From Nitratifractor salsuginis DSM 16511 (GTDB lineage Bacteria > Campylobacterota > Campylobacteria > Campylobacterales > Sulfurovaceae), in the NCBI RefSeq assembly GCF_000186245.1, contig NC_014935.1:310001-374000 (forward strand): 64,000 bases of DNA. The letters run 5' to 3'. The notes beneath the pieces were generated by a model, which was given only the letters and a program-made list of their open reading frames with translations, made no database searches and had not been told where the DNA came from. Position numbers and translations under genes: made by a program. This document shows positions 1-19,172 of the stretch, piece after piece (the stretch's first letter is position 1; each line of letters opens with the position of its first letter).

Positions 1-1
1 T

Positions 2-3000
2 TCGTCTCCCTTGGTAGATATCGTTGCTGATGGCACTACACACAATATTTCAGCCGGTTCCCCGGCAACCTATTGTCAGGATAACCCCGATGTTGTGATG
101 GCGGCTCTTCCGGGGTACTATACTGCAGGAAATTATCATGCAGGCGGAGGGACGCCACCGCCAAATGATTTTGGTACGGTTTTTAAAGTGCCTGCACCGA
201 AAAATGGAGTTTTTAACGATAACAATAGTATCAATGCAAAACGTTCAAAGCTTGCACAAGTTGCTCAGACGGGTGCAATCTGGGGAGCGGCCTGGCAGAA
301 AGGAGGTAAAAACCTTTTCGTCTCTGCCGCGCTTAAACGGTATGTACCACTTAAGGATGAAACTTCTTCCGATGCTGTACAGCGGTCAGCAGGTACTATA
401 TACAAGATTGATACACAGACAAACACAGTATCGCCTTTTGCTGTTGTCCCTGACGTACTGACATCGACAGCTGCTGATCGTTTACACAATAGAGACTACG
501 GTTACAATCAAGACACGGATGTAGTTCATTATGCCGGTCGGCAAGGCTTGGGGGACCTGGATATCAGTGAAGATGAAACAAAACTCTACACGGTCAATTT
601 AAAGAATAAGAAGTTGGTAGTGATTGATGCTTCCGATGGTACTATCATTGACTCTATCTCAATTCCCAACCCATATGGAAATGATTGTAATGATGAAAAG
701 GTCCGTCCCTGGGCCCTCAAGGTAAGGGGAAATGATGTCTTTATCGGGTCTGTCTGTGAGGATAAGATTGACACAGGTGACTATACTACGGATTTAGGTG
801 CCGCAATCCAAAAATATGATGGTGCAGCCTTCCAAACCGTTGCCCGAACCAATTCACTGCGTTATTTACGTGCTCGCGCATACGAACCTGCCAACAAATC
901 TGAGGGAGACGGTTACCGCTATACGAACTGGTCCAATGGAAATGATGAAAATTATGACGCACCCATGTTGACCGATATCGAGTTTACCAATCGTGGGGAT
1001 TTGGTTCTGGGTTACACGAGTCGGCAGACTTACAACCGTTATAATTTATTACGTGGTGATATTCGGAAAATGTGCTACAACGCGAATGGAAGTTATACGG
1101 ATGAAGATTCCGACATAGCTCATACAGACTGCCAGACCCATACCGAGCAATATGATGGCAATCCCACGATTTATAAAGAGTTTTATGTAGGGGATTTCTA
1201 CGGATCCAATCATGGGGAGCATGGACACCCTGAGACCGCTTCAGGTGCTTTGGCCCAGAAGCCCGGTGCATCCAACATTATCGTGGGAATGATCGATGCT
1301 ACTAACTGGTATCAGCCGGGAGCGATCGGTAATTACGATAACACGAGCGGAGACAAGATCGGTGCTCAGGCAGTAATTGACAATCGGAAAATGTCTGATG
1401 GCGGGGAACGTGAAACTTATGGTTCGAAAGCAGGTGGTATGGGAGACGTGGAACTTCTGTGTGATCCCGCGCCTATTGAAGTAGGGGATTATGTTTGGAT
1501 GGATATTAATCAAAACGGTATCCAAGATCCCAACGAACCGGCTTTCTCTGATGTGAATGTTACACTGGAGTGTGAGGAAGGCCAAAGCTACGTTTCTTAC
1601 GGTACCGCAACGACGGACAGCAAAGGTCATTATTACTTCGGCGGCCTGAACAATGTAAACCTTGCCAACGGTAAGACCCTCCGTAGCGGACAGAACTGTC
1701 GCCTTAGCATTGATGAGAGCGAAGTCAACGGTAAACCTCCGACAACGAAAGATGTCAACAACAATACTGAGGATCAGCATGATAATGATGCCGAAGACAG
1801 GAATGGATTTGCTGTCATTGAGTTTAGCACCACGGCGAGCAATAATCATGATTTGGATTTTGGGATTCAGCCCGCCCTCGGGTGTCTAACCGGTATCCTC
1901 TATGAAGATGTTAACGGTAATGGAGCGTTGGATTCAACTGATCAGCGTGCCCCTGCGCATATCACGATCAAGATCACTGATGCCTACGGAAACCATTACG
2001 CTACAGAGACCGATGCTCATGGATCGTTCTCTTTGACGGGGGTCCCTACCGGCCAAGTTCAGATGGCTATCGACACGACGGATACAGATATCCCCGAAGG
2101 AGCAGTTTGGAGTAATCCTCCGGGGAGTGCCGTGAGGATACAAGTTCAAGAGAGTACCCCCAACGGTACGCCCAACACTTGTGCTGAACAGGATTTCCCC
2201 TATACGCTTCCTAGCGAAGAGAATCGCGATCCCAAGACTACGGCTACTTGTGCAAATCCCACCTCTCTGACTTGGGAGGGAGCGAATGTGGGGACGGCAT
2301 CATCCTGGGATGGCAACAATATGGCTAGCGCTAAGACCTTTACCACGGAAGGCGGGATTCCTGTCGATGTCACTATGGAAATCATCAACGATAACAATGA
2401 GGAGTTCAACCCTAGTGACTCTGGTACGAATGCCGCATTCGGCAAGCCTTATTTGACCCTCTACCTCGGGGATCAGGATCAACCGGGTGACGGCAACTAC
2501 AGCGCTCAAGATTGTGCCGCACACAGCTATGACTTGGTGGCAGGGGAGTCTTATCAGCTTGAGGTTGACTTCTCTGATCCGGTCATTCTGGACAATTGGC
2601 GCCTCCGGGATGTGGATTCGGGTGACATTCGTAATGATGAACCCAATTGGAATTGGCAAGACGGTATCAAGGTTGAAGCCTACGATGCGAACAATCAACC
2701 GGTGGAGGTCGAGACCAAAATCGGCAACAGCGGTGCCGGACTAATCGTGGATGCCAACGGTACCGTCCATACTGATCCGGATCATTATAATGGTGGAGAT
2801 GTGGCTCATGGGCCCGGAGTAACCCCCAACAGTACCAATGGGCACATCGTATTGACCTCTAACTTTATTCCCATCAAGCGACTCGTCATCACCCATTTGG
2901 CGGGCCCGGATGTTCACTGTCAGACACGTTCTGCCCTAGCCGCAGCCGGTTTTGCGGTCTGTAAGCCCCTGCATCTCTCCGGTAAGGTTTACGACGATGC

Positions 3001-5326
3001 GGATGGTGTGGCTTCGAGCAGCGAATGTGCCACCAGTGACAATCAAGTTGACGGCACCCCCATTAGTTCCCTCGATGGTACGGCTCTGAATGTTTGTCTG
3101 ATCGGACCGGATGGCAAAGTAGTCGATACCCAGACCCTTAGTAACGGTACTTACGATTTCGACCGCTATATTCATCCCAATACGACTTACAAAGTTATTG
3201 TTACTCAAGAGGGATGTATCCCGGGTTCTGATGCTCCCGATTCTTTATTGCCTCAAGGTTGGCATTACGAGGGAGAGCAGATTGATCCGGATAATAATCC
3301 AGGACACGACGGAACCGTCGACGGGGTGATCAGCATAGATGTCAATACTTCAAATGTGAGTGAGATCGACTTCTCCCTCAACAAAGAGCCTAGAGCCAGT
3401 GGATACATTCGTCCCCTCGAATTAAATCCCGGAGGCAATACGGCAGTGCAGTTTGATCTCTCCGGCAATCCGACGTCACATTATATTGATGACTTGGAAG
3501 ACACCTCTGAAGTCGCAATCCGCATCAGCTCCATTTCTAATGGACAGCTTTATTATAATTCGAACCAGGTCCATATCAATGATGTGATTCCTAGTCCTGA
3601 TATTTCGTCATTCAGTATCGATCCAGATGACGGTGACGTAGTTGCGACTTTCATCTATCGTGCCTTGGATAAAGCCTGCCGCACTTCCGATGAGGCTGTC
3701 TTTGAGGCCCCCTTCAGGACAGTAAATATTTCCGGAAATCTCTATCTGGATATGACACGAGACGACAAGGTAAACGGTACGCCAGTATCTCAAAGTTGCG
3801 ATGGAGAGACCCCTCTCTATGTCAACCTTGTGGATAGCAACGGAAATGTTCTTTCAGCCGTACCGCTTGATCAGGACGGTAGTTACGCCTTTCATTATGA
3901 TGATGGCGTAGTTGCCAATAGTGACTATACATTGATCCTCTCGACTATTCGGGGTGAAGCGGGTGATCCTGCGCCTGAAGCGACGCTCCCCGAGGGATGT
4001 GGCCACTATGATGGAGAGAATATCGAATCAAAGAATCCAGACGGAAATGACGGAAACGCCGACGGTCGTATAGCAGTGCGTATGGATACGACAGATATTA
4101 ACCAGGTCAACTTCGCGATCACCCCAATGGTCAAGATCGGGGATCAGCTTTGGATCGAAGATGACAACGACGGTATCTACGAACCAGGAGAGGAGCCAGT
4201 TGTGGGCGCGACGGTCACCGCCGTATGCGGCGATCAAAACTTTAGTGCGGAGACCGACGGGATGGGACGCTACCTGATCGAAGTCCCCGCCAATATCGGT
4301 ACCTGTACCGTCTCTACGCCGACACCGCCTAATACAAACCCCACGGTGGGTTCCGAAGATGATACAGCTTCGGCAGATACTTTTGCGGAGGAAAATAATC
4401 ACAGTCACAACAATAGAGGTACCTATGTGGATATTGGAACCGAAAATATTTTGAGTCTTGATTTCGGCTTTTCCAAGGCAGTTGCCATCGGTGACACCGT
4501 CTGGATGGATGACAATATGAATGGCTTACAGGATGATAATCACCCGATGAGTGGAGTGCATGTGGTGCTCCATCGAGCTGACGGCAGTGTTGTAGCTGAA
4601 ACAGATACTAATAGCAGCGGCCAATATTACTTTGGTAACCTGGAAGCGGGAGACTATTACGTCAGCTTCGACGATCAGTACTACTACACCGACCCGAATG
4701 TCGGGAGTGATGATACGATCGACAGTGATGTCAACCGCAGCACTTTCCGGACGGAGACGACCCATCTTGACTGGGGTGAGCGGGATATGACAATCGATGC
4801 GGGGATCACCCCCACTGCCCATATCGGGGATTACTTTTGGATTGATGAGAATAAAAACGGGATCCAGGATCCCGGTGAACCTCCGGTCGCCGGGGGTGTT
4901 GTCGAGCTCTATGATGCCGACGGCAATCCCGTCTCCGATGTCCACGGCAACCACAGTGTCACCACTGACAGTAACGGTAAATACGGCTTCGATGTTGAGC
5001 CTGGCCAGACTTATAAGCTGCATTTCATCATCCCAAAGAATTTGCAAGAGGATGGCTATGTCTTCACCCCATCCAATGCGGGAAGTGATACAGGAGATAG
5101 TGATGCCGACGGTAGCGGGTTCACGGTTACGGTCACTCCCCACGCCGGGCAGAACATTGTTACCCTTGATGCCGGCATTAACTGCGGTTGTGACCGGAAG
5201 CAGGTTTCCAACGACAGCGGTGGCGGATCCGCAATGGGCGTGGTCAGTGGATTGCTGATGATCTTCCTGAGTGCCGGCTTGGGGCTTTGGATGATCCGAA
5301 GAGAAGAGAGTGAGGTTCTGGGATGA
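2..5326 (+). CDS. Giant SdrD-B-type surface protein with C-terminal sorting tail (5' end outside window)
   Basis: The reading frame is open to the window edge, so the start is missing. Alignment with the related protein at 13689 suggests that about 115 residues, including a signal peptide, lie upstream. The first ~490 residues resemble a beta-propeller-like domain shared with that protein (GDLDISEDE, VVIDASDG). Then come SdrD-B/Cna-B-like Ca-binding repeats with motifs such as GDYVWMDINQNGIQDPNEP, at roughly residues 493, 1375, 1491 and 1601 counted from base 11. The end carries INCGCDRKQ, a DSGGGSAMG motif, a membrane helix and RREESEVLG, a layout typical of exosortase or rhombosortase substrates. 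The protein is probably exported and processed by the exosortase-like enzyme at 18684. Its stop overlaps an ATG of the next reading frame (ATGA). Domain class is well supported; the biological role (adhesion, matrix or sheath) is unknown. Confidence 0.85.
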   Translation, partial: SSPLVDIVADGTTHNISAGSPATYCQDNPDVVMAALPGYYTAGNYHAGGGTPPPNDFGTVFKVPAPKNGVFNDNNSINAKRSKLAQVAQTGAIWGAAWQKGGKNLFVSAALKRYVPLKDETSSDAVQRSAGTIYKIDTQTNTVSPFAVVPDVLTSTAADRLHNRDYGYNQDTDVVHYAGRQGLGDLDISEDETKLYTVNLKNKKLVVIDASDGTIIDSISIPNPYGNDCNDEKVRPWALKVRGNDVFIGSVCEDKIDTGDYTTDLGAAIQKYDGAAFQTVARTNSLRYLRARAYEPANKSEGDGYRYTNWSNGNDENYDAPMLTDIEFTNRGDLVLGYTSRQTYNRYNLLRGDIRKMCYNANGSYTDEDSDIAHTDCQTHTEQYDGNPTIYKEFYVGDFYGSNHGEHGHPETASGALAQKPGASNIIVGMIDATNWYQPGAIGNYDNTSGDKIGAQAVIDNRKMSDGGERETYGSKAGGMGDVELLCDPAPIEVGDYVWMDINQNGIQDPNEPAFSDVNVTLECEEGQSYVSYGTATTDSKGHYYFGGLNNVNLANGKTLRSGQNCRLSIDESEVNGKPPTTKDVNNNTEDQHDNDAEDRNGFAVIEFSTTASNNHDLDFGIQPALGCLTGILYEDVNGNGALDSTDQRAPAHITIKITDAYGNHYATETDAHGSFSLTGVPTGQVQMAIDTTDTDIPEGAVWSNPPGSAVRIQVQESTPNGTPNTCAEQDFPYTLPSEENRDPKTTATCANPTSLTWEGANVGTASSWDGNNMASAKTFTTEGGIPVDVTMEIINDNNEEFNPSDSGTNAAFGKPYLTLYLGDQDQPGDGNYSAQDCAAHSYDLVAGESYQLEVDFSDPVILDNWRLRDVDSGDIRNDEPNWNWQDGIKVEAYDANNQPVEVETKIGNSGAGLIVDANGTVHTDPDHYNGGDVAHGPGVTPNSTNGHIVLTSNFIPIKRLVITHLAGPDVHCQTRSALAAAGFAVCKPLHLSGKVYDDADGVASSSECATSDNQVDGTPISSLDGTALNVCLIGPDGKVVDTQTLSNGTYDFDRYIHPNTTYKVIVTQEGCIPGSDAPDSLLPQGWHYEGEQIDPDNNPGHDGTVDGVISIDVNTSNVSEIDFSLNKEPRASGYIRPLELNPGGNTAVQFDLSGNPTSHYIDDLEDTSEVAIRISSISNGQLYYNSNQVHINDVIPSPDISSFSIDPDDGDVVATFIYRALDKACRTSDEAVFEAPFRTVNISGNLYLDMTRDDKVNGTPVSQSCDGETPLYVNLVDSNGNVLSAVPLDQDGSYAFHYDDGVVANSDYTLILSTIRGEAGDPAPEATLPEGCGHYDGENIESKNPDGNDGNADGRIAVRMDTTDINQVNFAITPMVKIGDQLWIEDDNDGIYEPGEEPVVGATVTAVCGDQNFSAETDGMGRYLIEVPANIGTCTVSTPTPPNTNPTVGSEDDTASADTFAEENNHSHNNRGTYVDIGTENILSLDFGFSKAVAIGDTVWMDDNMNGLQDDNHPMSGVHVVLHRADGSVVAETDTNSSGQYYFGNLEAGDYYVSFDDQYYYTDPNVGSDDTIDSDVNRSTFRTETTHLDWGERDMTIDAGITPTAHIGDYFWIDENKNGIQDPGEPPVAGGVVELYDADGNPVSDVHGNHSVTTDSNGKYGFDVEPGQTYKLHFIIPKNLQEDGYVFTPSNAGSDTGDSDADGSGFTVTVTPHAGQNIVTLDAGINCGCDRKQVSNDSGGGSAMGVVSGLLMIFLSAGLGLWMIRREESEVLG

Positions 5327-5966
5327 GCTTGCAAGTAATGCCTAAAGGAAAAAAGAAGATGGATAAGCTGATCAAAGCAGTGACCGCCGCGGCCCTGCTG
5401 ACGGGCGGGAGCTTTCTTTATGCCGGGAAGAATGTTGCGCCGGCCGTGGCACCAGTAGCAGCGGTGGAGGAGCCCTGGGGGCTTTATGCGGGGCTGGGGT
5501 TGCTGGGGAGTTATTTCGGTCGGGATTGCCCCTGCGGCGGCGGTGTGAGGATCTATGACCATACCTATGGATTGACCGGATTGCTGGGCTATGATTTTAA
5601 CTCCTTTCTCGGGATACAGGCCCGCCTCTCCTGGGCTCCTTTGGAGAGTGACTTTATGAAGATGGGCAATGGAGGGCTCTACCTGCGTCCCCGCTACTCC
5701 TTGACCGACCGACTTGATGTCTACGGACTGCTGGGGTACGGCTGGAGCCGTTTGAGCTGTGACTGCCCGGGCCATCCTCATCATCATCACAATCTGCACG
5801 GATTTCAATGGGGTGTAGGTGGAGAGTATTTCTTCGATAATGAGCGCATCGAGGGCAAACGTAAAGGGTGGTCAATCTGGACCGACTATGTCAACCTCTT
5901 TCACGACAAGACCCGCAACAACTTCACCGACAACACTTGGCAATTGGGTGTCGCCTATCACTTCTA
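4502..5966 (+). repeat. Long direct repeat, copy A (sorting module plus barrel gene)
   Basis: This is the first of three nearly identical blocks. It covers the last two SdrD-B domains and sorting tail of the giant protein plus the entire barrel gene. It matches 17172-18637 over its full length and 12216-13410 from base 4772 on. Identity stops inside the barrel stop codon: TAG here, TAA in copy B and TGA in copy C. Confidence 0.9.
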
Positions 5967-5967
5967 G
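5359..5967 (+). CDS. Outer-membrane beta-barrel protein, copy A
   Basis: A small protein of about 202 residues with a signal peptide (MDKLIKAVTAAALLTGG) and alternating aromatic/hydrophobic strands ending in WQLGVAYHF, a C-terminal aromatic residue as expected for a BAM-assembled outer-membrane barrel. Two segments are unusually rich in Cys and His: RDCPCGGG and LSCDCPGHPHHHHNLHG, which could bind metal or form disulfides. An upstream ATG at 5323 overlaps the previous stop and would add 12 residues. I prefer 5359 because AAAGGA lies 9 bases before it and the signal peptide then has normal length. It is translationally coupled to the giant surface protein. The function is unknown; it could be an outer-membrane partner or anchor of the giant protein. 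Confidence 0.8.
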   Translation: MDKLIKAVTAAALLTGGSFLYAGKNVAPAVAPVAAVEEPWGLYAGLGLLGSYFGRDCPCGGGVRIYDHTYGLTGLLGYDFNSFLGIQARLSWAPLESDFMKMGNGGLYLRPRYSLTDRLDVYGLLGYGWSRLSCDCPGHPHHHHNLHGFQWGVGGEYFFDNERIEGKRKGWSIWTDYVNLFHDKTRNNFTDNTWQLGVAYHF

Positions 5968-6043
5968 GTAGTCCGCCTTTCCTAATTTTCCCCATCAGGG
6001 GGCTTCCTTCTACTTGTTTTAAACTTTTTTTTACACTTTTTAA

Positions 6044-6072
6044 TTGCTCTGTAATATCCGGTACCCTACAAT
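6044..6072 (+). promoter_or_regulatory. Candidate promoter for the second giant surface protein
   Basis: TTGCTC (6044-6049) and TACAAT (6067-6072) are separated by 17 bases in the 140-base AT-rich gap after the first barrel gene. An AAGGA ribosome site follows at 6096-6100, 7 bases before a GTG start. This is a motif match only. Confidence 0.4.
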
Positions 6073-6107
6073 GATAAATCTATAGTTTTTCTTACAAGGA
6101 GCCGGAA

Positions 6108-9100: not shown

Positions 9101-12100
9101 CAACATCGCACCGACAGTCGGTGATGCCAATGATGTAAACAGCAACAGTTCCATCTGGTGTCAGGGGGATGCGAACGGGCCCAACGGCTGTACCATTCCC
9201 TCGACAGGGTTTACTTTTACGGACAATTCCGAGGTGACCGCAGTGCGGGTACGGGGACCACGGATGGAAGCGCAGGCGATCTGCCAATTCCGCGTTCATG
9301 TAACAGTAGACGACAACCTTATGGGTGACAACTATTCCAACTCGGCCGGCGCCTCGGCGACAGGGATTACCCTGCCGGTCCTTTCCAACTCGGTCGCTGT
9401 GCCTATCGTGGGCAGTTCTCTGGGTGATTACGTCTGGTACGACAAAAACAAAGACGGGATACAGGATAATGATGAACACGGAATTTCCGGAGTCAAAGTA
9501 GATCTGCTCGATGCAAGCGGCAATCCGGTCAATGATCCTACGACAGGACAGCCCTATGTGGTCACGACCGATGCAAACGGAAAATACCTCTTTACCAATC
9601 TCAGCCACGGGAATTATCAGGTCCGCTTTGAAATTCCTTCCGGATACAAAGCGAGCCCAGCGAATCAGGGCGATGACAGCGAAAATTCCGATGGGGATTC
9701 AAATGGAATCGCCCAGGTTTCTCTCGGTGTCGATGAGACGAATCCCAATGTGGATATGGGGATCAACACGCCGATTATCTCTGGGCATGTCTTTGATGAC
9801 GGCAACGGCAACGGTAATGTAGACGGAACGCTGATCAGTCAAGCTGACGGGACCCAGCTCTACGTGACCCTACTCGATGAGAACGGAACGGTACTTGCCA
9901 GTGCGCCTGTTGCGAATGACGGTGCCTACAGCTTCGACGGCGATGATGGTGTCAGAGCTAACAGTAACTATTCGGTTGTGCTTTCGACTGCTCAAAATAC
10001 CACGACATCGGCCTTGCCGGCAAATTGGAACAACGCCGACGGTGAGCAGCCGAACAACAGTGGAAACGGTACCGACGGTACGCCGGACGGAGTAATGAGC
10101 GTTGCAGTCGGTACAAGTGATTCCGTGAATAATGACTTCGGGATCAATAAAAAGCCCGTCGCCAACGATGAGACCAAACCGGCTGTACTTAACCCGGGCG
10201 GTAGCACGCAAGTGGCCGTGCCTGCTCTGGACTATTCAGATCAGGAAGACGGTACACCGAGTACGATCACGATCACGACACTGCCTGATCCTGCGACGGG
10301 GGTTCTCTATTATGACGGTACGCCGGTAACAGCGGGGCAGACCATAAACAACTTTGATCCCAGTAAGCTTACCGTCGATCCGACGGATGGAGACCAGACC
10401 GTGGTCTTCAAGTACACGGTGACCGATGCTGCCGGAGTGACTTCCGATGAAGCGACGGTAACCCTGCCCTTTACAGGGCTTGGGCTTTCAGGCCACGTAT
10501 TTGACGATGGAAACGGCAACGGCAATATTGATGGAACGCCGATCAGCAAGCCTGACGGTATACAGCTGTATGCCAATCTGGTCGATGCAAACGGCACTGT
10601 TTTGGCAGTACAGCCCGTTGCCGCTGACGGCACCTATGCCTTTGGTGGTACAGACGGGGTGACTGCCAATACCACTTATGGCGTGGTATTGAGTACAACC
10701 CAGGGAACCGTAGGGCAGAGTGCTCCGGCCGCGGCCTTGCCGGCAAATTGGAACAACGCCGACGGTGAGCAGCCGAACAACAGTGGAAACGGTACCGACG
10801 GTACGCCGGACGGAGTAATGAGCGTTGCAGTCGGTACAAGTGATTCCGTGAATGATGACTTCGGGATCAATAAAAAGCCCGTCGCCAACGACACAAGTAG
10901 GCCTGCACAGCTCAACCCGGGTCAGGATACGCAGGTACAGGTTCCGGAACTCAATGTCACCGATAGAGAGGACGGCAAACCTAAAACCATCACGATCAGG
11001 GATCTTCCGAGCAATGCCACTCTGTACTATAATGGACAGCCAGTCACCGCTGGACAGGTAATCACCAATTACGATCCTTCCAAACTTACCGTTGATCCGA
11101 TTGACGGGGATCAGACGGTGGTCTTTCACTACACTACGACCGATGCCGTTGGTGTCGAGAGTGACCCGGCGACGGTAACATTGTCCTTCAACGGTCTTGG
11201 ACTTTCCGGTACGCTCTACGATGACGGCAATGGCAACACCAACAATAAAGTGGATGGTACTCCGATCAGCAAGCCTGACGGCCAGCCTCTCTATGTCAAT
11301 CTGATCAGAGAGGATGGCAAAGTGATCGCTTCTAAACTTTTGGCAGATGACGGTACCTACCAGTTCCTTGGATCGGATGGTGTGACTGCCAATACCGAAT
11401 ACGATATTGTCCTGAGCACGATCAAGGGGACGCCGGACGATCCGGCTCCGGCCGCCCAGCTGCCTGTCAACTGGAACAACACCGGCGAGCATCTCAACAA
11501 CGAAGGGGACGGTAACGACGGAAACAACGATGGCAAGATCCATGTCGCGCTGGGGACTAGCGGGATTCCCAAGATTGATTTCGGGATCAACAAGAAGCCG
11601 GTTGCCAGAGACAGGACTGAAGCGGCTCAGCCCAACCCTTCCGGCGCCAAACAATATCCTGTTCCTGCACTGCCGGTCAGTGACAACGAAGACGGAACAC
11701 CCACAACCATTACGATCAAGACACTGCCCGATCCAGCGACGGGTGTTTTCTACTATGACGGTCAGCCGGTTACAGCGGGACAAGTCATTGAAAACTTCGA
11801 TCCCGACAAACTCACCGTTGATCCGACCGATGGCAATCCTGTAATGGTCTTTACCTATACTACTACGGATGCCGCCGGAATCGAAAGTGACCCGGCGAAG
11901 GTAACGATGCCTTTCCTCGGTGAAATGCATCTGGGTGACACCGTCTGGATGGATGATGACGGCAATGGCATTCAGGATCTAGGTGAAGCGGGGGTTTCCG
12001 GCGTGGAGGTCAGGCTTCTCGATGAGAACGGTACCGTAGTGCAGACGGTGACTACCGATGCGGAGGGTCATTACGACTTTACGATTCAGATACCGGGCAA

Positions 12101-12770
12101 ATATATGGTCGAGTTTGACAGCGATTACTACTACACCACAAAAGGTGCCGGAAGCGCAGACAACGACTCTAACGTTGGCGGACTCAGCAACCGTACTGAA
12201 CCTGTCGAATTGGGTTGGGGTGAGCGGGATATGACAATCGATGCGGGGATCACCCCCACTGCCCATATCGGGGATTACTTTTGGATTGATGAGAATAAAA
12301 ACGGGATCCAGGATCCCGGTGAACCTCCGGTCGCCGGGGGTGTTGTCGAGCTCTATGATGCCGACGGCAATCCCGTCTCCGATGTCCACGGCAACCACAG
12401 TGTCACCACTGACAGTAACGGTAAATACGGCTTCGATGTTGAGCCTGGCCAGACTTATAAGCTGCATTTCATCATCCCAAAGAATTTGCAAGAGGATGGC
12501 TATGTCTTCACCCCATCCAATGCGGGAAGTGATACAGGAGATAGTGATGCCGACGGTAGCGGGTTCACGGTTACGGTCACTCCCCACGCCGGGCAGAACA
12601 TTGTTACCCTTGATGCCGGCATTAACTGTGGTTGTGACCGGAAGCAGGTTTCCAATGACAGCGGTGGCGGATCCGCAATGGGCGTGATCAGTGGATTGTT
12701 GATGATCTTCCTGAGTGCCGGCTTGGGGCTTTGGATGATCCGAAGAGAAGAGAGTGAGGTTCTGGGATGA
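6108..12770 (+). CDS. Giant repeat-containing surface protein (2220 aa) with sorting tail
   Basis: It starts at GTG 6108 with AAGGA 7 bases upstream and has a signal peptide (RRGWMRWLFAMALIVSMGEA). The first ~700 residues are an unrecognised extracellular region with many Asp/Asn residues. DUF11-like domains follow (EVTYTLEMSLTDD, VTVTDVLPKDF), then an SdrD-B domain near residue 1102 (LGDYVWYDKNKDGIQDNDE). Three tandem ~240-residue units begin with SGHVFDDGNGNGN-like motifs, and further SdrD-B domains lie near residues 1940 and 2053. The final ~185 residues are almost identical to the other two giant proteins and carry NCGCDRKQ, DSGGGSAMG, a membrane helix and RREE. It is likely exported and sorted by the exosortase-like protein at 18684. 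No catalytic domain was recognised. Role in adhesion or a cell-surface layer is an inference. Confidence 0.88.
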   Translation: MEKRRGWMRWLFAMALIVSMGEASSVNVTTKYGKTGGIVGPLNTTSDLINGRQVCPADPTPGCDFADDPGFNNNGTVDDPTDDYYTGDLLVRTNDNFQAIAGWTWNGNPGGAEEVATITGTLPVAPDGNKYYEWTEIPGSCNPDHSSISADKQTIVCERKDFDKNDVGTFSEDLIFNVRVLGGTSNGTQPGDIKFKVEAPNAAAKEDTTDGHSLKVTASPRWNLDKAFGAYSIRSGQKVTINGQEETGYIIDYRILIETDEVNGETDNTYSLLGNESLGDDATITFTDDLSEIAPHATLLDCRTTGRAYSDTVRDGYVGSNLPITCIGDGCIRGSQYPERHIPQPKGEQTPTCTQTGSTVDVKIEHVDATLNHYPTKDYYGRDLPVNRAIASILTLSVFVPLDDVKAGDNGTVDCDGYGIGDPNCDDGELHTKNTAKDFDPVTPSGNHNFAGQGESEKDNYRNYTLYYSAGSFDKYYWGEKNSVWNAPAGIAHSREGDGFVGKGYEWSSRLYAANTGGIDQTENSFCDVIDANYMEIIKYSERTNYTDTRYAHEDDLPFIVYASNTDKGDPDNHMYRGGKISDYYDIEYAADYEDPSFLPSNNGDRQDENVDEKIKAECNAPADKWYPTIDEARAAGGAVTKIRWKLKPNMVMVPGQREYWMLLHRVRANRLDNNQPLQNGAMMVNYGTHKFDGNQGTWSTVSYIPHGLDANGQPENFVNGTGDRIFFTGPKVRIKKHENRTSASPGDEVTYTLEMSLTDDVNSNGLTEHVTVTDVLPKDFNYQQGSVSPEEFGEPILGTCADVSDITSASAPCVDGENQVLIWDLGERGVNAPNIPDLNYTVRIGAAANVGNNLNVVKIEAPSDASPVSQRKADIGLSIDIPASINIVKSTEENSDYPSKRERTTDPKDIFFRMDVRNGKSGEITDLDIIDILPFIGDGDDGAIQFNDLALKRKVPTNYHGTLAFHEADFGQHPGSSTECDYNQLDYYYTNADPKTINIAPTVGDANDVNSNSSIWCQGDANGPNGCTIPSTGFTFTDNSEVTAVRVRGPRMEAQAICQFRVHVTVDDNLMGDNYSNSAGASATGITLPVLSNSVAVPIVGSSLGDYVWYDKNKDGIQDNDEHGISGVKVDLLDASGNPVNDPTTGQPYVVTTDANGKYLFTNLSHGNYQVRFEIPSGYKASPANQGDDSENSDGDSNGIAQVSLGVDETNPNVDMGINTPIISGHVFDDGNGNGNVDGTLISQADGTQLYVTLLDENGTVLASAPVANDGAYSFDGDDGVRANSNYSVVLSTAQNTTTSALPANWNNADGEQPNNSGNGTDGTPDGVMSVAVGTSDSVNNDFGINKKPVANDETKPAVLNPGGSTQVAVPALDYSDQEDGTPSTITITTLPDPATGVLYYDGTPVTAGQTINNFDPSKLTVDPTDGDQTVVFKYTVTDAAGVTSDEATVTLPFTGLGLSGHVFDDGNGNGNIDGTPISKPDGIQLYANLVDANGTVLAVQPVAADGTYAFGGTDGVTANTTYGVVLSTTQGTVGQSAPAAALPANWNNADGEQPNNSGNGTDGTPDGVMSVAVGTSDSVNDDFGINKKPVANDTSRPAQLNPGQDTQVQVPELNVTDREDGKPKTITIRDLPSNATLYYNGQPVTAGQVITNYDPSKLTVDPIDGDQTVVFHYTTTDAVGVESDPATVTLSFNGLGLSGTLYDDGNGNTNNKVDGTPISKPDGQPLYVNLIREDGKVIASKLLADDGTYQFLGSDGVTANTEYDIVLSTIKGTPDDPAPAAQLPVNWNNTGEHLNNEGDGNDGNNDGKIHVALGTSGIPKIDFGINKKPVARDRTEAAQPNPSGAKQYPVPALPVSDNEDGTPTTITIKTLPDPATGVFYYDGQPVTAGQVIENFDPDKLTVDPTDGNPVMVFTYTTTDAAGIESDPAKVTMPFLGEMHLGDTVWMDDDGNGIQDLGEAGVSGVEVRLLDENGTVVQTVTTDAEGHYDFTIQIPGKYMVEFDSDYYYTTKGAGSADNDSNVGGLSNRTEPVELGWGERDMTIDAGITPTAHIGDYFWIDENKNGIQDPGEPPVAGGVVELYDADGNPVSDVHGNHSVTTDSNGKYGFDVEPGQTYKLHFIIPKNLQEDGYVFTPSNAGSDTGDSDADGSGFTVTVTPHAGQNIVTLDAGINCGCDRKQVSNDSGGGSAMGVISGLLMIFLSAGLGLWMIRREESEVLG
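9779..11915 (+). repeat. Three tandem ~710-base intragenic units
   Basis: Units begin near 9779, 10487 and 11203, each coding for a Cna-B-like plus Ig/cadherin-like pair of domains. Within them, 10011-10169 and 10733-10891 are identical but for about one base, which suggests recent gene conversion or unequal exchange, while the rest of the units have diverged. Confidence 0.8.
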
Positions 12771-13410
12771 GCTTGCAAGTAATGCCTAAAGGAAAAAAGA
12801 AGATGGATAAGCTGATCAAAGCAGTGACCGCCGCGGTCCTGCTGACGGGCGGGAGCCTTCTTTATGCCGGGAAGAATGTTGCGCCGGCCGTGGCACCAGT
12901 GGCAGCGGTGGAGGAGCCCTGGGGGCTTTATGCCGGGCTGGGGTTGCTGGGGAGTTATTTCGGTCGGGATTGCCCCTGCGGCGGCGGTGTGAGGATCTAT
13001 GACCATACCTACGGAGTGACCGGATTGCTGGGCTATGATTTTAACTCCTTTCTCGGGATACAGGCCCGCCTCTCCTGGGCTCCTTTGGAGAGTGACTTTA
13101 TGAAGATGGGCAATGGAGGGCTCTACCTGCGTCCCCGCTACTCCTTGACCGACCGACTTGATGTCTACGGACTGCTGGGGTACGGCTGGAGCCGTTTGAG
13201 CTGTGACTGCCCGGGCCATCCTCATCATCATCACAATCTGCATGGATTTCAGTGGGGTGTAGGTGGAGAGTATTTCTTCGATAATGAGCGCATCGAGGGC
13301 AAACGTAAAGGGTGGTCAATCTGGACCGACTATGTCAACCTCTTTCACAACAAGACCCGCAACAACTTCACCGACAACACTTGGCAATTGGGTGTCGCCT
13401 ATCACTTCTA
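12216..13410 (+). repeat. Long direct repeat, copy B (sorting tail plus barrel gene)
   Basis: Second copy of the block. It begins one SdrD-B domain later than copies A and C, at a TTGGGGTGAGCGGGATATG stretch, and ends inside the barrel stop codon. Its barrel protein appears identical to copy C and differs from copy A at a few residues. Confidence 0.9.
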
Positions 13411-13411
13411 A
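12803..13411 (+). CDS. Outer-membrane beta-barrel protein, copy B
   Basis: Near-identical paralogue of the barrel gene at 5359. Compared with that copy it reads SLLYAG for SFLYAG, YGVTG for YGLTG and FHNKT for FHDKT. It has the same signal peptide, Cys/His-rich loops and C-terminal Phe. The upstream in-frame ATG at 12767 again overlaps the stop of the giant protein. After its TAA comes a 277-base AT-rich gap that holds no gene I can see but probably the promoter of the third giant protein; a weak GCCCT/AGGGC hairpin lies near 13450. Confidence 0.8.
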   Translation: MDKLIKAVTAAVLLTGGSLLYAGKNVAPAVAPVAAVEEPWGLYAGLGLLGSYFGRDCPCGGGVRIYDHTYGVTGLLGYDFNSFLGIQARLSWAPLESDFMKMGNGGLYLRPRYSLTDRLDVYGLLGYGWSRLSCDCPGHPHHHHNLHGFQWGVGGEYFFDNERIEGKRKGWSIWTDYVNLFHNKTRNNFTDNTWQLGVAYHF

Positions 13412-13688
13412 AATACTGCGATACTGCGGAACTCCCCATCTTTTTGCCGCCCTTCTTGGAGGGCTCTTGGCGATTCGATAAGCTGTTTTAACTCTAGACA
13501 ACCATAATTAACAAACTAGCCAATTCCTTATATTCTTAAGTAATGTATTATAAAATATTTAATAAAATGTGTCATGGTAGTGAAAGAGAGGATTCATTGC
13601 TCTCTTCCCATATCAGATTAGGTCGAGAGGGAAAAGGCGAAGGATCTTTAAAACATTAGGTGTTACAAAGAGGGGGGAGAAAAAAGAT

Positions 13689-16600
13689 ATGTATTTATTA
13701 AAAGGGGCACTATACAGACTTTTTATTTCAGGTGTGATTGTACTGCTTTCAGCGATATCTGCTCAGGCGGATATATCCGGGATCGTTTTCAGAGACTTCA
13801 ATCTCAACGGTGTTAAAGATACGCTGGAGCCGGGGGTCGCCGGATTGACGGTGGCTGCTTATGACGATAGCGGTCAGGCGGTGGATACCGTGATGACAAA
13901 TAGTGATGGAAACTATACCCTTGCGACGGATCCGGGAACCTATCGAGTGGAGGTGAGTGGAGTTCCCGCCTTTCTCAAACCGGGTACATCTCTGAGTGGG
14001 AATACGAGACCCCTGGTTGATAGAGTGACAGACGGTGCAACACACAATGTGGGATTGATCAGCGCGGGGGAGTATTGTCAGAGTAATCCGGATATTCTGG
14101 TGACGCGTTTCACCAAATATAACCGGGACGGAAGCAATGGACAAATTTCCGTTTTCTTGGAGTATGCCTATACGGCGAACACGACAGATGATGATAGTAC
14201 AGACGACCCGAAGGCGGAGTTGGGAACGTACTCGCAGATTGGGTCCATTTATGGATTGGCTCATTTTAAAGAGGCCAACATCACCTATCTGGGCACCTAT
14301 CTCAAACGTCACGCTGACATCGGTCCCTCGGGGATGGGTGCGATTTATAAATATGATCACGCTTCCGGGACCTTCTCAACCCTGATCACTCTTCCTACCT
14401 ATGATCCGCGCAATGGAGCCGGTCAGGGATATGACTGGGATCACGATACCGAGGCTTACCGTTGGGTGGGCAAAACAGGAATCGGAGATATCGAAATTTC
14501 AGAGGATGAACAGCGTCTTTTTGCAGTGGATCTCTACGATCGCAAGCTCTACGTTATCGATCTGAATCAAAGCGGGGATGCCACCGGCCATACAGGATAT
14601 GACATTCCTAACCCTTGTGGCAATGATACTGACTTCCGCCCTATGGCATTGGGATATCGGGATGGAAAACTCTATGTGGGAGTAACCTGTACCGCGGAAT
14701 CGACGGTGGATCCGGATAATCAGGATGACAGTACCAACGGCCCGCGTAAAGGAGATCGCAACGCACTCTCGGCTCATATTTATCGATTTGATCCTGACAG
14801 TACCAGCTTTGAGCCCAATGCAGTTCTGGATATTAATCTCACCTATGATCGAGGCTGTATTCATAGTAGCGATGTTAGCAATCAAGACCCTTCTACCTGT
14901 ACCTATCAGGACTGGGATGATCAAACGCAACCCTACCGTGCCAATTGGAATCCTTGGCAAATGGATTATGACATTGTCTTCAATGACAAGAAACCGGGAG
15001 ATATCGGGAACCAGGATAACTGGATCGAATATATGCAACCCTTGCTCTCTGATATTGTATTTGACAACGACGGATCTATGATCATCCAGATACGGGATGT
15101 CAACGGAGATCGCGGCGGATACAAGAACTATTCTCCCAATCCCAATGATACCACCCGTCAAAATATGAATGGCGAGGGGGACATTCTCCGAGCTTGCGGA
15201 AATCCGCAAAGCGGATGGACTCTGGAAAACAACGGTGAGTGCGGCGGTGTGCAGACGAATGGGGCGAATAACCATGAGGGGCCCGGCGGAGGCGAGTACT
15301 ACTGGAACGATCAGGGGCCGGGAGGGACGAATCACAGTACCGCCGGCAGCGCTTATCAGGGAGATGCAGGCCACAGCGATACTTCTATGGGGGGATTGCT
15401 TGTGGTCCCGGGATATCCGGATGTAGTGACGGGGTTGATGGATGTTACCGATTATCTGAATAATGGCTTAGGTTGGCTGCGCAACGATACAGGTGAGTTG
15501 GCAAAAGACGGGTCGGGGAATCCCAAGCGCCTTCTTGTCTCTGAAGACGATCAAGATAAATTCTATGGGAAAGGGAGCGGAATCGGAGACCTGGAAGCGC
15601 TTTGCGATCCTGCTCCCATCGAGATCGGAAACTATGTTTGGGAAGATAGCGACGGGGACGGGATTCAGGATCCCGGTGAGAGCCCCATCGCCAATGTCAC
15701 TGTGAAACTCTATGATGCTAATGGGCAAGAAATCGGCTCCACGACGACCGATAGCAATGGAGAGTATTACTTTGGAGGAGCCTCCAATGCCAGAGGTGTG
15801 GCCCTCGCTCCCCATACCCACTACCAAATCCGCATCGCACTTAATGATCAGCATCTCAATGGAAGAGTCCCGACAACCAGGGATGCTAATCCCTCAGCAC
15901 CTGACTCCGATGATCAGCATGACAGCGATGGAGACAACGGCACCCTTAACCCCGGATTCTCCACCATAGATTACACCACAGGGGGAGCAGGTAAGAACGA
16001 CCACACCCTTGATTTTGGCTTTGTTCCACCTTCTTCTCTCGGTGACTACGTCTGGGTTGACAGTAACCGTGACGGTATTCAAAATGATGGTGCCAATGCC
16101 GGGATCCAGGGTGTGACGGTCCACCTTTATAAGGATGGACAAGACACCGGCCGGACTGCCACCACCGACGGTAACGGTAAGTACCTCTTCGATAATCTGG
16201 TGCCGGGCAGCTACCACGTGAAGTTTGATGTGCCTAACGGCTATGTGGTTTCGCCCAAGGATCAGGGTAACGATGAGACAAAAGACTCCGATGCCGATCC
16301 GGCCACCGGTGCTACGGTCGATACGGACCTGAGCGCGGGCGAGAACGATCTGACCTGGGATATGGGAATTTACCCTGTCGCCGATGTGAGCCTGAGTAAA
16401 GATGTCAACCAGAGCACCGCCTATGAGGGGAATCGGGTGACCTTTACCATCACCGTGCATAACGACGGTCCGAGCGTGGCACATAACGTGACCGTCACCG
16501 ACGCCGTTCCCGACGGATACGAAAATGTAGGCGATGCGACGAACGGTGCGAGTGTCAGCGGCAGTACCGTAAGCTTCACCGTTGCGAGCCTGGCCGTCGG

Positions 16601-17585
16601 CGCCGATGCAAGCTTTAGCTTCCAGGCTGACTACAAAGAGAGCGGGGAGCATACCAACTGGGCCGAGGTGACGGCGATGGATGAGGCCGATGTCGATTCC
16701 GATCCGGCCAGTGACCATACCCAGGATGACTTGAATGACGGACAGCCCGATGACGATGAGAGCAATGCAACGGTCAGCACCGGCGAGAAAGCGACCCTAG
16801 GTGACTACGTCTGGGTTGACAGTAACCGTGACGGTATTCAAAATGATGGTGCCAATGCCGGGATCCAGGGTGTGACGGTCCACCTTTATAAGGATGGACA
16901 AGACACCGGCCGGACTGCCACCACCGACAGTAACGGTAAGTACCTCTTCGATAATCTGGTGCCGGGCAGCTACCACGTGAAGTTTGATGTGCCTAACGGC
17001 TATGTGGTTTCGCCCAAGGATCAGGGTAACGATGAGACAAAAGACTCCGATGCCGATCCGGCCACCGGTGCTACGGTCGATACGGACCTGAGCGCGGGCG
17101 AGAACGATCTGACCTGGGATATGGGAATTTACCCTGTCGCCTCCCAGACAGCTTCCATCGGCGATTATGTTTGGATGGATGACAATATGAATGGCTTACA
17201 GGATGATAATCACCCGATGAGTGGAGTGCATGTGGTGCTCCATCGAGCTGACGGCAGTGTTGTAGCTGAAACAGATACTAATAGCAGCGGCCAATATTAC
17301 TTTGGTAACCTGGAAGCGGGAGACTATTACGTCAGCTTCGACGATCAGTACTACTACACCGACCCGAATGTCGGGAGTGATGATACGATCGACAGTGATG
17401 TCAACCGCAGCACTTTCCGGACGGAGACGACCCATCTTGACTGGGGTGAGCGGGATATGACAATCGATGCGGGGATCACCCCCACTGCCCATATCGGGGA
17501 TTACTTTTGGATTGATGAGAATAAAAACGGGATCCAGGATCCCGGTGAACCTCCGGTCGCCGGGGGTGGTTGTCGAGCTCTATGA
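13689..17585 (+). CDS. Third giant SdrD-B surface protein, truncated by a frameshift
   Basis: It starts at ATG 13689 with GGGGAGA 8 bases upstream. A signal peptide (LFISGVIVLLSAISAQA) is followed by an SdrD-B domain (SGIVFRDFNLNGVKDTLEP) and a propeller-like region to about residue 640, homologous to the N-terminus of the first giant protein. SdrD-B domains follow near residues 646, 779, 1038 and 1155. A DUF11 domain (VTFTITVHNDGPS) sits at about 900-1030, between two nearly identical SdrD-B copies. A single extra G at 17568-17569, relative to the two sister copies, shifts the frame and ends the protein at GGGCRAL. The product lacks the last domain, the Cys pair and the sorting tail, so if made it may be released rather than sorted. 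A sequencing error or a slippage-controlled site cannot be excluded. Confidence 0.85.
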   Translation: MYLLKGALYRLFISGVIVLLSAISAQADISGIVFRDFNLNGVKDTLEPGVAGLTVAAYDDSGQAVDTVMTNSDGNYTLATDPGTYRVEVSGVPAFLKPGTSLSGNTRPLVDRVTDGATHNVGLISAGEYCQSNPDILVTRFTKYNRDGSNGQISVFLEYAYTANTTDDDSTDDPKAELGTYSQIGSIYGLAHFKEANITYLGTYLKRHADIGPSGMGAIYKYDHASGTFSTLITLPTYDPRNGAGQGYDWDHDTEAYRWVGKTGIGDIEISEDEQRLFAVDLYDRKLYVIDLNQSGDATGHTGYDIPNPCGNDTDFRPMALGYRDGKLYVGVTCTAESTVDPDNQDDSTNGPRKGDRNALSAHIYRFDPDSTSFEPNAVLDINLTYDRGCIHSSDVSNQDPSTCTYQDWDDQTQPYRANWNPWQMDYDIVFNDKKPGDIGNQDNWIEYMQPLLSDIVFDNDGSMIIQIRDVNGDRGGYKNYSPNPNDTTRQNMNGEGDILRACGNPQSGWTLENNGECGGVQTNGANNHEGPGGGEYYWNDQGPGGTNHSTAGSAYQGDAGHSDTSMGGLLVVPGYPDVVTGLMDVTDYLNNGLGWLRNDTGELAKDGSGNPKRLLVSEDDQDKFYGKGSGIGDLEALCDPAPIEIGNYVWEDSDGDGIQDPGESPIANVTVKLYDANGQEIGSTTTDSNGEYYFGGASNARGVALAPHTHYQIRIALNDQHLNGRVPTTRDANPSAPDSDDQHDSDGDNGTLNPGFSTIDYTTGGAGKNDHTLDFGFVPPSSLGDYVWVDSNRDGIQNDGANAGIQGVTVHLYKDGQDTGRTATTDGNGKYLFDNLVPGSYHVKFDVPNGYVVSPKDQGNDETKDSDADPATGATVDTDLSAGENDLTWDMGIYPVADVSLSKDVNQSTAYEGNRVTFTITVHNDGPSVAHNVTVTDAVPDGYENVGDATNGASVSGSTVSFTVASLAVGADASFSFQADYKESGEHTNWAEVTAMDEADVDSDPASDHTQDDLNDGQPDDDESNATVSTGEKATLGDYVWVDSNRDGIQNDGANAGIQGVTVHLYKDGQDTGRTATTDSNGKYLFDNLVPGSYHVKFDVPNGYVVSPKDQGNDETKDSDADPATGATVDTDLSAGENDLTWDMGIYPVASQTASIGDYVWMDDNMNGLQDDNHPMSGVHVVLHRADGSVVAETDTNSSGQYYFGNLEAGDYYVSFDDQYYYTDPNVGSDDTIDSDVNRSTFRTETTHLDWGERDMTIDAGITPTAHIGDYFWIDENKNGIQDPGEPPVAGGGCRAL
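16042..16382 (+). repeat. SdrD-B domain direct repeat, first copy
   Basis: A 341-base segment coding for one complete SdrD-B domain, repeated at 16801-17141 with about one mismatch (GACGGTAAC versus GACAGTAAC). The DUF11 domain lies between the copies. Confidence 0.9.
16801..17141 (+). repeat. SdrD-B domain direct repeat, second copy
   Basis: Partner of 16042-16382 at an offset of 759 bases. Recombination between the two would delete the DUF11 domain in frame, since 759 is divisible by three. Confidence 0.9.
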
Positions 17586-18637
17586 TGCCGACGGCAATCC
17601 CGTCTCCGATGTCCACGGCAACCACAGTGTCACCACTGACAGTAACGGTAAATACGGCTTCGATGTTGAGCCTGGCCAGACTTATAAGCTGCATTTCATC
17701 ATCCCAAAGAATTTGCAAGAGGATGGCTATGTCTTCACCCCATCCAATGCGGGAAGTGATACAGGAGATAGTGATGCCGACGGTAGCGGGTTCACGGTTA
17801 CGGTCACTCCCCACGCCGGGCAGAACATTGTTACCCTTGATGCCGGCATTAACTGTGGTTGTGACCGGAAGCAGGTTTCCAATGACAGCGGTGGCGGATC
17901 CGCAATGGGCGTGATCAGTGGATTGTTGATGATCTTCCTGAGTGCCGGCTTGGGGCTTTGGATGATCCGAAGAGAAGAGAGTGAGGTTCTGGGATGAGCT
18001 TGCAAGTAATGCCTAAAGGAAAAAAGAAGATGGATAAGCTGATCAAAGCAGTGACCGCCGCGGTCCTGCTGACGGGCGGGAGCCTTCTTTATGCCGGGAA
18101 GAATGTTGCGCCGGCCGTGGCACCAGTGGCAGCGGTGGAGGAGCCCTGGGGGCTTTATGCCGGGCTGGGGTTGCTGGGGAGTTATTTCGGTCGGGATTGC
18201 CCCTGCGGCGGCGGTGTGAGGATCTATGACCATACCTACGGAGTGACCGGATTGCTGGGCTATGATTTTAACTCCTTTCTCGGGATACAGGCCCGCCTCT
18301 CCTGGGCTCCTTTGGAGAGTGACTTTATGAAGATGGGCAATGGAGGGCTCTACCTGCGTCCCCGCTACTCCTTGACCGACCGACTTGATGTCTACGGACT
18401 GCTGGGGTACGGCTGGAGCCGTTTGAGCTGTGACTGCCCGGGCCATCCTCATCATCATCACAATCTGCACGGATTTCAATGGGGTGTAGGTGGAGAGTAT
18501 TTCTTCGATAATGAGCGCATCGAGGGCAAACGTAAAGGGTGGTCAATCTGGACCGACTATGTCAACCTCTTTCACAACAAGACCCGCAACAACTTCACCG
18601 ACAACACTTGGCAATTGGGTGTCGCCTATCACTTCTG
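17172..18637 (+). repeat. Long direct repeat, copy C (sorting module plus barrel gene)
   Basis: Third copy of the block. It is identical or nearly so to copy A over two SdrD-B domains, the sorting tail and the barrel gene, apart from the single-base insertion at 17568-17569. Confidence 0.9.
17570..17997 (+). pseudogene. Out-of-frame sorting module of the third giant protein
   Basis: Downstream of the extra G, the reading frame shared with the other two giant proteins continues in +1 to the normal stop at 17995-17997. It encodes the rest of the last SdrD-B domain, NCGCDRKQ, DSGGGSAMG, the membrane helix and RREESEVLG. There is no signal peptide, so independent translation would not give an exported protein. 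Its stop still overlaps the ATG frame leading to the barrel gene. Confidence 0.75.
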
Positions 18638-18638
18638 A
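18030..18638 (+). CDS. Outer-membrane beta-barrel protein, copy C
   Basis: The protein appears identical to copy B (202 residues from the preferred start; 214 from the ATG at 17994). Signal peptide, RDCPCGGG and CDCPGHPHHHH segments and terminal Phe are all present. The exosortase gene follows after 45 bases, so all may be on one transcript. Confidence 0.8.
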   Translation: MDKLIKAVTAAVLLTGGSLLYAGKNVAPAVAPVAAVEEPWGLYAGLGLLGSYFGRDCPCGGGVRIYDHTYGVTGLLGYDFNSFLGIQARLSWAPLESDFMKMGNGGLYLRPRYSLTDRLDVYGLLGYGWSRLSCDCPGHPHHHHNLHGFQWGVGGEYFFDNERIEGKRKGWSIWTDYVNLFHNKTRNNFTDNTWQLGVAYHF

Positions 18639-18683
18639 TGCCGGGAAAAATCGTGAACCACTCGGATCGTTAAAGAGTTTTCA

Positions 18684-19172
18684 ATGACCCAAAGTCAGCG
18701 TTTTTTGCTGCACTACCTTTCCTGGGTAGCGGTTCTTTTCCTTCTCTTCTATCTCGATACCAATTCCCTTTCCCACTGGATCAATGAAACCCAACGACAA
18801 TGGCTTCTCGATGCCCTGCGCTTCTTTTTGGGAGAGGATCGGGTACGAGGGCTAGACATCCTGGCTCATCCCCATTTTCGCATCATCATCACCCGGGCTT
18901 GCAACGGGCTCATTCCTTATTACCTCTATCTGGCGGCTATCCTGGCTTACCCCCGTTCCTGGAAAGCGCGTTTGACCTGGGCTGTGTTGGGCTACGGGGT
19001 GATCAGTGCGGTGAATCTGCTCCGCCTCCTGATGGTAACGGCCTTGGTTGCAAAAAATCCTTCCAACTTCCATTGGGCCCATGACTTGCTGGGGAATGCG
19101 CTTTTGATGGTGACGGGGCTCGGGCTCTTCTACGGCTTTTTGCGCAGGAGCCGGCCGACACGCTCAATCTGA
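18684..19172 (+). CDS. Exosortase/archaeosortase-family membrane transpeptidase
   Basis: A 162-residue membrane protein with several helices and the three conserved exosortase positions: Cys73 in RACNGLIPYY, Arg114 in AVNLLRLL, and His130/His133 in HWAHDLLG. Exosortases are thought to cleave and transfer proteins carrying a C-terminal motif-helix-basic tail. Here the three giant proteins directly upstream carry such a tail, so they are the obvious substrates. The length fits the short single-domain exosortases. AAAGAG at 18673-18678 could be the ribosome site. The recognised tail (DSGGGSAMG) is not the PEP motif, so the named subfamily cannot be assigned from sequence reading alone. Confidence 0.82.
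   Translation: MTQSQRFLLHYLSWVAVLFLLFYLDTNSLSHWINETQRQWLLDALRFFLGEDRVRGLDILAHPHFRIIITRACNGLIPYYLYLAAILAYPRSWKARLTWAVLGYGVISAVNLLRLLMVTALVAKNPSNFHWAHDLLGNALLMVTGLGLFYGFLRRSRPTRSI

Follow-up and report, generated by a model that had tools for sequence, protein, structure and literature searches.

The closest precedent for the arrangement described here is, by analogy, the Myxococcus TraA/TraB pair with its MYXO-CTERM tag and the myxosortase MrtX. TraA bears the MYXO-CTERM, and the traA and traB genes overlap by four bases (PMC3325183). Transport of MYXO-CTERM proteins by the type II secretion system (T2SS) is described in the myxosortase paper, where TraA and TraB together are likened to MXAN_5598, in which an adhesin with MYXO-CTERM in its interior is joined to a β-barrel and an OmpA domain (PMC11980579). 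Genomes with GlyGly-CTERM proteins generally also have a T2SS (PMC3237569). The route by which exosortase substrates cross the outer membrane is not settled in the literature searched. The system described here is a small test case for this question: it combines a single exosortase with one to four substrates and a partner barrel, and in many genomes its exosortase gene is part of a T2SS cluster. The exosortase/tail/barrel system is real and fits no named family in the libraries searched; no description of it in Campylobacterota was found in the largely open-access literature searched.

Architecture of the locus

The window, that is, the whole stretch of 64,000 nucleotides that was analyzed, covers bases 310001–374000 of the single-contig genome of Nitratifractor salsuginis DSM 16511 (2,101,285 bases). 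The original prediction of three giant SdrD-B proteins, three barrels and one exosortase was borne out by Pfam and the exosortase signature. All are present as open reading frames (ORFs): three giant ORFs with SdrD_B, three barrel ORFs of 214 aa that match Pfam OMP_b-brl, and one exosortase-family ORF (Table 1). Giant 1 starts approximately 320 nt upstream of the window (L002:17684), and the barrel 1 ORF overlaps its stop by 4 nt (ATGA).

Table 1. Features of the exosortase locus, in positions of the window.
Feature	Position	Strand	Evidence
Giant 1, SdrD_B surface protein, ~1880 aa	1..5326	+	Pfam SdrD_B E 1e-79; tail match E 1.6e-31
Giant 1 tail, in frame	5162-5323	+	Tail match
Barrel 1, signal peptide and 8-stranded OmpA/Ail/OmpX-like β-barrel	5323..5967	+	Pfam OMP_b-brl E 7e-17; AlphaFold2; Foldseek
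Giant 2, SdrD_B protein with signal peptide, 2220 aa	6108..12770	+	ORF, Pfam, tail match
Giant 2 tail, in frame	12606-12767	+	Tail match
Barrel 2, 98% identical to barrel 1; 4-nt overlap with giant 2	12767..13411	+	ORF and DNA comparison
Giant 3, 1298 aa as read, frameshifted, without tail	13689..17585	+	DNA comparison of the three copies
Giant 3 tail-coding DNA, out of frame, within ORF 17467-17997	17833..17994	+	DNA comparison, tail match
Barrel 3, 98% identical to barrel 1	17994..18638	+	ORF and DNA comparison
Exosortase, 162 aa	18684..19172	+	TIGR04178, invariant residues, AlphaFold2, single genomic match

The three giants had been said to encode the same tail. The tail DNA is indeed found in all three, but the tail of giant 3 is out of frame, and the copies represent one duplication. 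The last ~1.2 kb of the giants, together with the barrels, shows 98.5–99.7% DNA identity between the three copies, and this is a recent duplication of a block of about that size. The likeness of tails and barrels inside the window is thus not independent evidence; we rejected the reading of three independent tails and counted the block once. Comparison of the three copies places one extra G in giant 3 at 17568/17569, and the protein ends ...AGGGCRAL* at 17585. The extra base puts the tail out of frame, though the tail DNA itself is intact. It could be an assembly error, the mark of a pseudogene or an on/off switch. Immediately before the extra G are five consecutive Gs and then a T. A fourth tail protein of 1815 aa is encoded ~270 kb away (C1:36.5 kb); its tail is diverged (43% tail identity), and no barrel gene adjoins it.

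Directly upstream of giant 1 (L002:13631-17439) are the genes for an NQR2/RnfD-like membrane protein, a ~640-aa protein and a ~319-aa protein. The same three genes precede a giant in G315 (L170) as well, and in the metagenome-assembled genome at L134. The ~640-aa gene was found in 5 of the 34 genomes searched, all five of them exosortase-positive. Because it is missing from most exosortase genomes, we rejected the three genes as extra parts of the system.

The exosortase

The exosortase scores 59.2 bits against the superfamily signature TIGR04178 (cut-off 23), which places it in the superfamily, and it is the sole copy in the 2.10 Mb genome. The catalytic residues proposed for it hold in part: across 15 family sequences, Cys73, Arg114 and His133 never vary, but His130 is not conserved. 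The AlphaFold2 model has a mean pLDDT of 94.8, and a comparison of this predicted fold with solved structures gave no match. With 56.7 bits, the enzyme stays below the cut-off of 86 for XrtH (TIGR04177), as do two relatives scanned singly (47.8 and 39.5). Its score for exosortase X (NF046081) is 53.4 bits against a cut-off of 170, and it falls under every cut-off of all other named NCBIfam exosortase subfamilies. The proposal of a possible new sorting class is supported: the exosortases of this group go with a tail class of their own, and at cut-off neither a named NCBIfam subfamily nor a tail model covers them.

The tail and its substrates

We aligned 14 tails from the exosortase's own family. 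Thirteen contain Cys. The alignment further shows an SD(S/G)-type motif and a helix, and at the end a basic pair is followed by Glu-Glu, which is invariant, so that the tail has an RREE-type end (R/K-R-E-E). The original prediction that the motif is not PEP-CTERM agrees with the absence of Pro-Glu-Pro and of a match to any NCBIfam tail model. With E values of up to 10 allowed, a comparison of both tails with the NCBIfam tail models gave a spurious match to FxsA and a sub-cut-off match to LPXTG_anchor and no others, although short and weak matches may be lost to the HMMER filters. Each genome yielded one to four tails. In other genomes, the domains seen in the substrates are SdrD_B, DUF11/DUF7507, Big_9 and cadherin-like ones, with a lectin-like domain in one; this set fits surface adhesins.

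An early lean toward rhombosortase found no support beyond the likeness of the motif. None of 20 exosortase genomes had a rhombosortase (TIGR03902) above the cut-off of 84; there were sub-cut-off rhomboid-like matches only, likewise seen in all 14 control genomes. Rhombosortase was thus rejected as the processing enzyme.

The co-occurrence of tail and exosortase was surveyed in a sample of 397 Campylobacterota genomes, many of them drafts with broken giant genes. The exosortase signature was found in 21, including G310, which was set aside as a frame with stops. Tail-profile matches of E ~1e-5 or better occur in 13 genomes, all exosortase-positive. Two further exosortase-positive genomes (G392 and G207) have weaker matches, but these are C-terminal, and in G176, the remaining exosortase-positive member of the family f1, the giant beside the exosortase runs off the contig. 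Within f1, tailed surface proteins are present in 15 of 16 exosortase-positive genomes and in none of 14 negative ones (p = 2e-7, relatedness ignored), and both exosortase states occur inside the genera g1, g5 and g6. Over the 397 genomes, tailed surface proteins are confined to those with the exosortase, as the co-occurrence check put forward with the original prediction would have it.

Ten exosortase-negative genomes gave weak tail-profile matches (E 3e-4 to 8e-3). All ten were inspected and rejected. In seven the match is a helix of an unrelated membrane protein, well away from the C-terminus, and in one it is a frame interrupted by a stop; in G287 and G304 it falls on the final helix of a multi-pass membrane protein with DUF347. 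The genome G013 (family f8) has a tail-profile match at 2e-5, but the matching protein has a VPxx-type tail at its end, and VPLSP-type tails are found on the proteins encoded next to the exosortase of this genome; this is a different pairing from that of the SD(S/G)-type tail. In f8, proteins bearing VPLS-type tails are encoded on either side of the exosortase (L047:7936-9618 and 10864-11856; L041:10611-11378), which suggests a second exosortase–tail pairing in the phylum. In G040 (L053:6536-10179), a subtilisin-like protein with a GGSGGGSAPLF tail is encoded directly before the exosortase, adjoining gspF, gspE and gspD.

A hydrophobic helix with a basic end could also be an ordinary membrane anchor, in which case the SdrD-B proteins would stay in the inner membrane and the exosortase would act on something else. 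Given the conserved motif, the restriction of the tail to exosortase genomes and the presence of one exosortase per genome, we regard this as very improbable.

Partner barrels

The barrel model from AlphaFold2 (pLDDT 83.5) matches OmpA (E 2.5e-10), Ail and OmpX in Foldseek. At 14 loci in 11 genomes, with the triplicate of the window counted once, the distance from the stop of the substrate gene to the start of the barrel ORF is −11 to +15 nt. This tight pairing is also seen where the exosortase gene is elsewhere in the genome. A barrel had been expected after each substrate, and this holds for most of them. The fourth substrate of this genome and the substrate of G284 have no barrel behind them, and in the genus g4 the order differs, with the barrel and then the exosortase preceding the giant. 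The pairing is usual, not universal, and the two substrates without a barrel behind them (C1:36 kb; G284) indicate that an adjoining barrel is not needed for every substrate.

Barrel-profile scores of ~131 bits or more were seen in exosortase genomes only; a lower-scoring, wider barrel family occurs elsewhere too. In a tree of 36 barrels, one 100/99 branch holds the 17 barrels of the system and four unpaired ones, all from exosortase genomes; three of the 17 are g4 barrels, which adjoin the exosortase and do not follow a substrate. The paralogues in this tree were chosen with the same barrel profile, so the split is somewhat favored. A distant paralogue (G000:C1:1737850-1738404; L012, L125) adjoins polysaccharide export-like and glycosyl-phosphate transferase-like genes.

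The barrels might still be ordinary OmpA-type outer-membrane proteins that are carried along with the adhesin genes and have no role in sorting or display. The wider barrel family in exosortase-negative genomes and the substrates that lack a barrel speak for this reading. The substrate-adjacent barrels, however, form a separate, well-supported clade found in exosortase genomes only, and in many genomes barrel and substrate genes remain closely paired at unlinked loci. On this evidence we consider ordinary, passively carried barrels improbable.

Type II secretion neighborhood

GspG was detected above cut-off in 85 of 373 genomes: in all 16 exosortase genomes of that draw and in 69 of the 357 others. 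A scan of named genomes returned 36 exosortase relatives, all labeled Campylobacterota or its subgroups and mostly Sulfurovum. In 26 of these 36, the exosortase gene is between or adjoining gspF and gspG, and in the longer loci gspC, D and E are close by as well; the assignment of the gsp genes by NCBIfam comes from one locus, L045. The new observation is that the exosortase gene sits inside a T2SS gene cluster in many relatives, and this makes the surface route of the tagged proteins testable. In the Sulfurovum-type clusters, the exosortase gene and the neighboring gsp genes have opposite directions of transcription. In N. salsuginis, the GspG gene (C1:58 kb) is well separated from that of the exosortase.

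The exosortase and the tail could be a true pair whose substrates are exported without T2SS, the position in the gsp cluster being an inherited gene order in Sulfurovum-type genomes. Consistent with this, the exosortase is not beside gsp genes in the window, in G095/G207 (where a ribonucleotide-reductase-like gene adjoins it) or in G396, L142, L149, L151 and L152 (a glmS-like gene), and of the 13 family members that lack the exosortase, 7 have a T2SS as well. On the other hand, every exosortase genome examined for T2SS has one, and the exosortase is close to gspF/E/D in the distant G040, which belongs to another family, and near gsp genes in g4. We therefore judge export without T2SS to be unlikely, though less so than the two alternatives weighed above.

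Proposed pathway

We consider it probable that the locus encodes a small dedicated exosortase system, with Sec export, processing of the tail, probable T2SS export and display with a partner barrel. The data show the identity of the exosortase and its catalytic residues, its co-occurrence with the tail, the pairing of substrate and barrel genes, the limits of the barrel clade and the T2SS neighborhood of the exosortase gene. In the proposed pathway, the giant adhesins (SdrD-B, Ig or cadherin-type) would leave the cytoplasm via Sec and be held in the inner membrane by the C-terminal tail, which consists of a Cys stretch, an SD[SG]-like motif, a hydrophobic helix and R/K-R-E-E. The single exosortase (Cys73, Arg114, His133) would cut the tail near the motif and would probably transfer the new C-terminus to another carrier. 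The processed adhesin would then probably be exported by the T2SS. Its display at the surface may be aided or held by the 8-stranded OmpA-type barrel, a putative physical partner whose gene usually comes directly after that of the adhesin and overlaps or abuts it. The cleavage and transfer, the T2SS as the route and the partnership of barrel and adhesin are read from the genes and their order.

More tentatively, this may be a T2SS-coupled exosortase class, in which processed adhesins are handed to the T2SS and each is usually received or held by its own co-translated barrel. It would then be a convergent counterpart of TraA/TraB that uses a different sortase.

Comparison with known systems

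XrtH and exosortase X are the closest named models. They share the superfamily signature and the catalytic Cys, Arg and His with the enzyme described here, which differs in falling below their cut-offs and in having tails that match no NCBIfam tail model. PEP-CTERM/EpsH (PMC1569441) is alike in its exosortase superfamily enzyme and tripartite tail; it differs in that the motif here is not Pro-Glu-Pro, no tail model matches, and only 1–4 tails are found per genome. GlyGly-CTERM/rhombosortase (PMC3237569) has a similar Gly/Ser-rich motif followed by a helix and a basic end, but the enzyme here is an exosortase.

The likeness to TraA/TraB is one of arrangement, not of membership. A tagged adhesin followed by an overlapping or abutting barrel was found at 14 loci. 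As with TraA and TraB, a tagged surface protein precedes an OmpA-type outer-membrane partner with a 4-base ORF overlap, and the tag, like MYXO-CTERM, has a Cys-containing motif, a helix and a basic end. The tag sequence itself differs from MYXO-CTERM. TraA is Cys-rich with PA14, whereas the giants are SdrD-B or Ig/cadherin proteins, and TraB has an OmpA cell-wall-binding domain that the barrels here (~200–270 aa) lack; in barrel 1, Pfam finds the barrel domain alone. In TraA/TraB-MYXO-CTERM, the T2SS carries the tagged protein to the surface, the route that gene neighborhood and co-presence make probable here. The earlier remark that such a substrate/barrel pair had not been described needs qualifying in light of this precedent, although the sortase there is another enzyme: by its description, MrtX is an intramembrane protease of another kind, not an exosortase.
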